The position numbers and the translations under genes are program-made. A stretch of 26,313 nucleotides of DNA, taken from positions 1-26,313 of IMG/VR virus record IMGVR_UViG_3300021956_000070. The stretch is one strand, 5' to 3'. This DNA is from a virus. Under the pieces are notes generated by a model. The model searched no databases. It had not been told where the DNA came from and saw nothing but the letters and a program-made list of their open reading frames with translations. Positions 5,130 to 6,557 of this stretch are shown here, piece by piece (positions within the stretch are counted from its first letter, which is position 1; each line of letters starts with the position of its first letter).

Positions 5130-5158
5130 TGTAGTGTTCAGTTTAAGTTCACTCTGAC

Positions 5159-5214
5159 GGCCTCGTCAGCACCCGCCTTACGGGTGGACGCCCCCCAGAG
5201 GGGGCGTTTCGGCC
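5159..5214 (-). ncRNA. Type II hammerhead ribozyme
   Basis: Reading the minus strand 5' to 3': GGCC (5214-5211); GAAA (5210-5207), whose last A closes stem III; stem III ACGCCCCC/GGGGGCGT (5207-5200 with 5195-5188), loop TCTG; C17 at 5187; stem I CACCCG/CGGGTG (5186-5181 with 5175-5170), loop TAAGG; CTGACGA (5169-5163); GGCC (5162-5159). GGCC pairs with GGCC as stem II, the open stem, which makes this a type II hammerhead. All invariant core positions are present: CUGANGA, GAA, the A15.1-U16.1 pair and C17. Cleavage is predicted between 5187 and 5186. Stem II can extend past an internal loop by pairing TTCT (5220-5217) with AGAG (5155-5152), including one G-U. The first G is also the last base of the upstream TAG stop codon. 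Confidence 0.88.
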
Positions 5215-5357
5215 TAAGAAAGTTTGGCGAGCATTGCGTTGAGGCGCTCCAAAGCATCGATGCATTCTCCGATTGTGTTTGGGTGGCCTTGAAATTCAGC
5301 GTAAGCGAGGTCCATTTCGTATTCGCGGATTGCGGAGAGAATCTGTTGTTTGGTCAT
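5214..5357 (-). CDS. Small helical hypothetical protein upstream of the ribozyme
   Basis: I start this at the ATG at 5357 (MTKQQILSAIREYEMDLA), giving 47 residues. The open frame begins at a TTG at 5411, but that would overlap the previous gene. The leader before 5357 (CAAACAACAACA) is the A/C-rich type seen elsewhere in this phage. The protein is helical, and the GECIDALERLNAMLAKL segment is amphipathic. No known domain is visible. The stop TAG supplies the first base of the hammerhead ribozyme, so its mRNA would end about 30 nt after the stop codon if the ribozyme cuts. Confidence 0.5.
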   Translation of the reverse strand: MTKQQILSAIREYEMDLAYAEFQGHPNTIGECIDALERLNAMLAKLS

Positions 5358-5404
5358 TGTTGTTGTTTGGTTCGTTGTTGCGGTTGCTGCTAACGACGAC
5401 AACT

Positions 5405-5599
5405 TTAGCAAGCCAAACGCGCTTGGCTAGCTATTTCTTTCACTTTTTTTGCACGCTTTAAAGCGTTGAGTTCCCGCGCTTTAGGACGCGGCTTACTAGC
5501 ATTCCGGCGCGCTGCCTCTGCTTTTTTCTCGGATTTTACTGCGCCGCCCAGCCGTCCGATCTCGCGGCAGTGCTCGCGGAGTGTCTTTTCAGGTTGCAT
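5405..5599 (-). CDS. Small basic protein with LGG/Ala-Arg pattern
   Basis: The product is 64 residues, strongly basic and Ala-rich. GRLGGAVKSEKKAEAARRNA resembles the short Gly-Gly/Lys motifs found in small bacterial and phage proteins that may bind nucleic acid, but the family is uncertain. It is the first gene of the left-hand transcription unit, 6 nt after a promoter-like -10 element, so its mRNA may be leaderless or nearly so. There is no Shine-Dalgarno sequence (GGCTGGCGGG precedes the ATG). Confidence 0.55.
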   Translation of the reverse strand: MQPEKTLREHCREIGRLGGAVKSEKKAEAARRNASKPRPKARELNALKRAKKVKEIASQARLAC

Positions 5600-5737: not shown

Positions 5738-6343
5738 TCATTCGCCAAGCATTGCCAGCCCGGCTTCAAACAAATCGGCTTCTTCGTCCCGCCTGCGCCG
5801 TAAGCCCTTGGATTCCGGCCACAACCGTTTCATTGCGCGTAGTTGGTCGGGGATTGGTTTCCATTCTTTAACTCGCATTAGGTCGCGGATGGTAGCCATT
5901 TCCATGCGCCGTTCGCCAATTAGGGACGGCCCACGGTTGAACACAAGCGAGACCAGCGCCGCCGCGCAATCGCCGGGAAGGTCCACAAGCTGCGGGTAGA
6001 CTCGAAGTGTGCGGAGATACCAGGTCGGCAAAGTGCTCTCTTCAAACACGGCCAGCGCCGCAGCCCACGGCACAACGAGATGCCGGACATGAGGAAGGAT
6101 AGCCCGTGCGTTTTCGCCTTTTTTGCCCGACACACCAACCAGCGCGGCCAGCGTGGTAGAATTTAGATATTTTGCCCATGCCCTCGTTGTCTCCACAACC
6201 GGCGTGTGTCCGAGATCCCAACCAATGCCTATCGTGATACCAGACTCTCCGCCGGGCCATTCGGGATTGCGGTCGTAAAGGCTCTCCCCGCCCGTTTCCC
6301 AGCCAATAATTGCTTTAATCCCCCGCTCCGTAAGGTTCATCAT
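5738..6343 (-). CDS. Phage lysozyme (endolysin), GH24-like
   Basis: The start is the ATG at 6343 (MMNLTERGI), preceded by one of the few strong Shine-Dalgarno sequences here (AGGAGG, 6 nt before). This gives 201 residues; the longer frame to 6508 is a shadow of the preceding genes. The N-terminus has GWETGGESLYD with Glu residues at 16 and 20, followed by GITIGIGWDLGH (about 35-46). This is the E then T/G/D layout of phage muramidases that cut the peptidoglycan glycan backbone. VSLVFNRGPSL later in the protein is also typical. There is no signal peptide, so release would need a holin. It is the last gene of the late cluster and follows small membrane-protein genes. The exact glycosidase family is uncertain. 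Confidence 0.75.
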   Translation of the reverse strand: MMNLTERGIKAIIGWETGGESLYDRNPEWPGGESGITIGIGWDLGHTPVVETTRAWAKYLNSTTLAALVGVSGKKGENARAILPHVRHLVVPWAAALAVFEESTLPTWYLRTLRVYPQLVDLPGDCAAALVSLVFNRGPSLIGERRMEMATIRDLMRVKEWKPIPDQLRAMKRLWPESKGLRRRRDEEADLFEAGLAMLGE

Positions 6344-6557
6344 CTTCCTCCTCCTCTTGTATTTGTGGTTCCTCTCCAGTCTCTTCAGAAAACCGCATTG
6401 CTTGGTAGAGCCGCGCAAATAGGCTGCCGGAACCGGCTTCGTAAGTTGTGTAAGTGTTTGTATCCGAGTCATGCGCCAAGATTTGCACGCAATCAAAGTG
6501 CTCGCCAATTTCGGCAGCCATTCGCTCGATAAATTCCTGCTTTTCGTCCTGTGTCAT
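6315..6557 (-). CDS. Small acidic hypothetical protein
   Basis: The 80-residue protein is acidic throughout and ends in a poly-acidic tail (QIQEEEEDDEPYGAGD). The Glu codons of that tail double as the Shine-Dalgarno region of the lysozyme gene, which starts inside it with a 29-nt overlap. The start forms an ATGA junction with the preceding gene. I recognise no domain. Its place in the lysis region may be incidental. Confidence 0.6.
   Translation of the reverse strand: MTQDEKQEFIERMAAEIGEHFDCVQILAHDSDTNTYTTYEAGSGSLFARLYQAMRFSEETGEEPQIQEEEEDDEPYGAGD

Follow-up and report, generated by a model that had tools for sequence, protein, structure and literature searches.

Genomic Context

The window analyzed here is a linear virus record of IMG/VR, 26.3 kb in length. 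Genes for a terminase, a portal, a protease, a major head protein, a tape measure protein, tail fibers, a lysozyme-like protein and RecT are recognizable on one of its strands. On this same strand, the minus strand, a ribozyme is encoded downstream of the structural genes, between a lysis-like gene (5738-6508) and the gene of RecT (864-1619). Its immediate neighbors are two small open reading frames (Table 1). The 124-residue protein encoded downstream had no match in Pfam, PHROG, NCBIfam or the PDB, and the upstream ORF none in Pfam, PHROG or NCBIfam. An earlier note on this DNA, made without database searches, had assigned the ribozyme to an early transcript. Such a timing finds no support in this position, nor in the surrounding sequence, as no promoter- or terminator-like site was found near the ribozyme on its strand.

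The best full-length match of the terminase, a distant one, is that of the Verrucomicrobia phage P8625. The gene order of this phage is much like that of the window: terminase, portal, Clp-like protease, coat, tape measure, tail fiber, metallophosphoesterase and RecT. Because of these two resemblances, the virus of the window likely has a verrucomicrobial host. A close ribozyme is also present in a Spartobacteria MAG (L215). A search of the isolated phage P8625 itself (L496) gave no hammerhead match. Among isolated phages in general, the DNA of the locus found no match, and the ribozyme alone found weak partial matches only.

Table 1. Elements of the ribozyme and the flanking reading frames, numbered along the window.
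Feature	Position	Strand	Remarks
Upstream ORF, 65 codons from TTG, 48 from ATG at 5358	5214..5411	-	TAG end inside the ribozyme edge; no family match
A directly 5' of stem II	5215	-	A in 205/205 GGCC-type relatives and 512/543 overall; not part of any search pattern
Stem II, 5' strand GGCC	5211..5214	-	First G also ends the upstream stop TAG (5216-5214)
G12-A13-A14, catalytic core	5208..5210	-	
Stem III hairpin, 8 bp, loop UCUG	5188..5207	-	5207-5200 with 5195-5188; closed by A15.1(5207)-U16.1(5188)
C17	5187	-	Predicted cleavage site, scissile bond 5187/5186
Stem I hairpin, 6 bp, loop UAAGG	5170..5186	-	5186-5181 with 5175-5170; loop consensus of the class UNRNG
Core CUGACGA (C3 U4 G5 A6 N7=C G8 A9)	5163..5169	-	
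Stem II, 3' strand GGCC	5159..5162	-	
Anti-core tail GUCAG	5154..5158	-	Complement of C3-N7 (5169-5165)
Downstream ORF, 124 aa	4755..5129	-	No family match

Architecture of the Ribozyme

Sequence analysis confirms a complete type II hammerhead at 5214-5159 of the minus strand, as the earlier note had described it. Every element could be placed: GGCC, GAAA, stem III, C17, stem I, CUGACGA and GGCC follow each other in this order, so that stems I and III are closed and stem II is open, the permutation that defines type II. All conserved core bases are present (CUGANGA, GAAA with the A15.1-U16.1 pair, and an H17, here a C). The covariance-model search proposed at that time as a check gave a match to the Rfam family RF02276 at 5214-5152 on the minus strand; it scores 43.2 bits, above the gathering score of 37 (E 6.7e-6). 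It is the sole RNA family match within the window. A strict motif parser likewise recognized a single motif in the window, and 200 dinucleotide shuffles of the window yielded none. In the 4.26 Mb of sequence from related loci, 612 motifs were found, vs. none once that sequence was shuffled.

The three stems covary strongly. In an alignment of 49 sequences, 97.6% of the cells of stems I, II and III are paired and 252 cells are changed on both sides; none of 500 shuffles reached either value. The phage RNA at this site very likely cuts itself after C17. The scissile bond that had been predicted is supported, and a cut there would put the upstream ORF and the 124-residue protein on separate mRNAs, in line with the original suggestion.

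The published pseudoknot between loop I and the 3' tail is absent from the window: the loop UAAGG is without a partner in the tail GUCAGAG. As this pseudoknot is common in the type and not defining for it, the membership in type II stands. An extension of stem II (5217-5220 with 5152-5155), also put forward in the earlier note, can be drawn. It is not kept in the relatives L003 and L004 (with ..AACCTA upstream and the same tail), and it competes for tail bases with a conserved pairing described below. A function of stem III as a terminator was rejected as well: it has no U-run, and there is no terminator-like match on that strand.

Type II Hammerheads in Related Loci

Relatives were collected with pattern scans in which the core and stem II were fixed and every flanking base was left free; these returned viral loci by the hundreds, along with 48 genome contigs. 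Parsing reduced them to 543 distinct type II hammerheads, with up to nine copies in one locus. The phage contigs with the most copies are L076 and L099 (nine each), L294 and L469 (eight each) and L448 (seven); in such contigs, the hammerheads lie within a few kb at successive gene boundaries.

Two classes can be told apart by loop I. In the class with a long loop I, the published loop I-tail pseudoknot is present in 40 of the 42 members, where 22 are expected from swapped tails. In the class with a short loop I, to which the window belongs, neither flank is complementary to the loop beyond chance (22 vs. 21.7, and 38 vs. 30 with a maximum of 41). A pseudoknot between the UAAG of loop I and the 5' flank CUUA (5215-5218), at first thought likely, was dropped on the first of these counts, obtained with swapped flanks. 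A loop I-tail pseudoknot in the short-loop class was rejected too, as there is no excess.

In ten loci with multiple copies (L281, L282, L338, L446, L448, L469, L076, L099, L436 and L398), the strict parser defines 58 hammerheads, of which the gathering cut-off of RF02276 recovers only three. The large short-loop class is therefore mostly missed at the current Rfam threshold. Type II hammerheads below this cut-off are also present in the Streptomyces phages Dryad and Yara (L497, 1909-1967 and 1463-1544; L498, 619-675). These are isolated, culturable phages, without a core-complementary tail by eye, and a possible test bed.

Gene Boundaries

The stop codon of the upstream ORF overlaps the ribozyme, and the next start codon is found 29 nt beyond it. 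The overlap had been pointed out in the earlier note; it is real, and in the relatives it turns out to be general. In 310 of 353 representatives, an ORF with a length of 40 codons or more has its stop no farther than 30 nt from the 5' edge of the ribozyme (from -30 to +12), compared with 25% at random positions. The modal arrangement is that of the window, T-A-G with the G as the first base of stem II, and the stop is flush in this way in 152 of the 353. The downstream start lies at a median of 24.5 nt from the ribozyme. Judged from these representatives, a stop overlap combined with a nearby downstream start is the rule among the approximately 540 type II hammerheads collected.

The ribozyme does not belong to one gene. 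Three other contigs encode the 124-residue downstream protein, and the ribozyme precedes the gene in all three. In L003 and L004, the ribozyme differs from that of the window by one loop base and stands ahead of a downstream ORF with 78% identity over residues 1-74, while the flanking genes differ; the upstream gene of L003 is of another family. In loci that resemble the window, a single upstream family, present in 21 loci, has at least a dozen different gene families downstream of it. As both the upstream and the downstream gene families vary around the same ribozyme, it is a boundary element, and by this comparison it marks the place where exchanged gene cassettes meet. In a RecT-bearing phage, the ribozyme could itself supply the short homology for such exchanges.

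The near identity of the ribozyme in L003 and L004, in spite of their different flanking genes, also bears on whether it is active. Perreault et al. tested 18 consensus-like hammerheads, of which four failed to cleave (PMC3088659), and the element could in the same way be a hammerhead-like relic, inactive in the phage of the window. With all core bases intact and the helices of the family covarying, such a relic is highly improbable.

A Tail Complementary to the Catalytic Core

The tail that directly follows stem II, GUCAG, is the exact complement of CUGAC, the first five bases of the core strand. In the window, G8(5164) and C(5159) can add a sixth pair. The tail was absent from every search pattern. 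Within the hammerhead core, only N7 is free to vary without loss of activity. It is therefore the only core position able to show covariation with the tail.

This covariation is clear. In the GGCC-type set, N7=C occurs with GTCAG 39 times and never with ATCAG, and N7=T with ATCAG 26 times and with GTCAG once. When free tails are pooled across every type of stem II, a C at N7 is opposite G in 55 of 58 cases, and a U is opposite a purine in 61 of 67 (A in 53, G in eight). The association is strong (Fisher 7.6e-23), and by parsimony N7 has switched at least 21 times on the tree. When the closest pairs differing at N7 are compared, 42 of the 58 switch from G to A in the tail too, and eight more use U-G. 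A gap-free alignment of 49 members has 22 C-G pairs, 27 U-A pairs and no broken pair at N7; its members were chosen for T(C/T)AG, which leaves the N7 column as its sole independent evidence. The match holds across many stem II sequences and with a varying distance between tail and stem II. Both versions occur side by side in single contigs (L282, L281, L469, L338). In many-copy contigs, N7 and tail can differ together from one copy to another. The covariation of N7 with the tail shows that, in addition to the active ribozyme, another RNA structure is under selection.

In the free tails, T faces G, a G-U pair in RNA, six times, and C never faces A, which indicates RNA rather than DNA pairing. 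The position at the borders of exchanged cassettes would suit a DNA inverted repeat, CTGAC...GTCAG, kept as a protein site or recombination linker and not as RNA. Given these facings, and given that the repeat always takes in the invariant core of the ribozyme, on the coding strand, this explanation is extremely improbable.

The group with stem II GACC/GGUC reaches the same hairpin in its own way: GUC is already encoded in the stem, and AG follows GGUC in 47 of 55 members. A strictly defined anti-core helix is present in 113 of the 333 short-loop representatives vs. 27 in shuffles, but in only three of the 42 members of the long-loop pseudoknot class, where two are expected. Under a loose definition (any start, loop of up to 30), 309 of 540 were counted vs. 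143 in shuffles; because of this high background, the strict definition alone was used. Many short-loop phage hammerheads can thus, as far as base complementarity goes, fold an alternative anti-core hairpin, and the tail is present in only about a third of the class.

In a variant of the tail with an insert (GUCCUUCGUCUGAG), UCGUC can pair with GACGA of the core. This and similar forms (for example, GUCCUUCGUCUGAGAG) were encountered in L025, L036, L046, L047, L054, L063, L064, L068, L039, L082 and L095, and can be a second putative way to the same sequestration of the core. In loci without an anti-core tail, the start codon is nearer to stem II (median 21 nt vs. 25.5 nt with a tail); perhaps the ribosome does the job of the tail there.

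A conserved tail could also be an activating tertiary contact. Tail positions do matter in type II hammerheads (PMC3088659), and the loop I-tail pseudoknot of the long-loop class would be the model. We consider such a contact very unlikely in the short-loop class: its loop I has no flank complementarity in excess of chance, the tail covaries with N7 of the core, and its spacing from stem II is variable.

Folding and Proposed Mechanism

Folding was computed with nearest-neighbor energies, in which the tertiary contacts of the hammerhead are ignored. In the predicted 3' product, the anti-core hairpin has a median probability of 0.96. In the uncut RNA, this model, without tertiary contacts, gives a median of 0.93 for the anti-core hairpin vs. 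0.02 for stem II, so the tail might inhibit cutting. The two folds of the window are nearly degenerate: an 81-nt piece folds into stem II, and a 111-nt piece into the anti-core hairpin. The strengths of stem II and of the anti-core hairpin are correlated (partial rank r about 0.40, n = 66, controlled for GC and N7), a value inflated in part by one base that both helices can share. A purely post-cleavage role does not need this correlation.

The type II hammerhead probably cuts the polycistronic phage mRNA after C17, and the tail would then re-pair with the catalytic strand. The nascent RNA would fold stems III, I and II and then cleave. The upstream mRNA would end in the stem III hairpin, and the downstream mRNA would begin with stem I, its freed CUGAC now pairing with GUCAG. 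This hairpin would displace the 4-bp stem II, which would prevent religation and release the upstream piece. The downstream mRNA would have a 5'-hydroxyl end shielded by a pair of neighboring hairpins, behind which the ribosome-binding region stays open. The comparison of sequences shows the ribozyme, the covarying complementarity of core and tail, and the setting between stop and start codon; from it we infer that cleavage takes place and that the hairpin acts mainly afterwards.

The main rival to this post-cleavage latch is a switch or timer that acts before cleavage. The anti-core hairpin would then be the OFF state of a bistable uncut RNA, in which the fraction of RNA that is cut would hang on a race between stem II and the tail, possibly set by the ribosome at the overlapping stop codon. 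The fold preferred in uncut RNA and the correlated helix strengths speak for it, as does the stop flush with stem II in so many representatives. Natural hammerheads can be fast, however, and the folding leaves out tertiary stabilization. The shared base also weakens the argument from the correlation. We regard a pre-cleavage switch as possible but rather unlikely. Its widest form, a widespread class of phage hammerheads with a two-state switch whose state is picked by the ribosome terminating at the stop that overlaps stem II, is more doubtful still; if true, the cutting of the mRNA would be coupled to the translation of the upstream gene.

Action of the hairpin after the cut is favored for three reasons. 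The tail lies directly 3' of stem II, so the order of transcription lets stem II form first. Each product of type II cleavage keeps its own capping hairpin. Finally, selection would act against a purely inhibitory tail at a site where processing is constitutive. As N7 can be changed without harm to catalysis, the pairing with the tail is open to a clean test in which it is freely disrupted and re-established.

Comparison with Known Systems

It is already known that phages carry type II hammerheads, that these form clusters between genes and that a loop I-tail pseudoknot occurs (PMC3088659; review PMC6155905). The anti-core tail appears to be new for those of type II: no description of it was found in the literature searched. 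This novelty is provisional, as most subscription journals lay outside the search.

The type II hammerheads of RF02276 (PMC3088659) share with the window the core, the open stem II, the position at phage or prophage gene boundaries and the presence of several copies per phage. Their consensus has the loop I-3' tail pseudoknot, whereas the window, lacking it, has a 5-nt UNRNG loop I and a 4-bp stem II. The tail of the window, complementary to the core, differs from this consensus too. The HHphage hammerhead of the haloviruses HF1 and HF2 likewise lies just upstream of a phage gene start, and the mapped 5' end of the mRNA is at most 3 nt from its cleavage site (PMC3088659). In contrast to the window, it has a variant core and belongs to an archaeal virus, and an anti-core tail is not described there (PMC3088659).

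The pairing of catalytic sequences elsewhere, which would prevent recutting, has its counterpart in viroids. Viroid hammerheads can be held inactive in the native fold. The strands of ASBVd, for example, differ in reaching the active fold (PMC3939467). These are global rod-like or branched folds, unlike a 5-bp adjacent hairpin that covaries with N7. Engineered ribozymes also carry competing strands, with a competing sequence that tunes a self-cleaving ribozyme (PMC7192461). They are designed, whereas the element of the window is natural, conserved and covarying.
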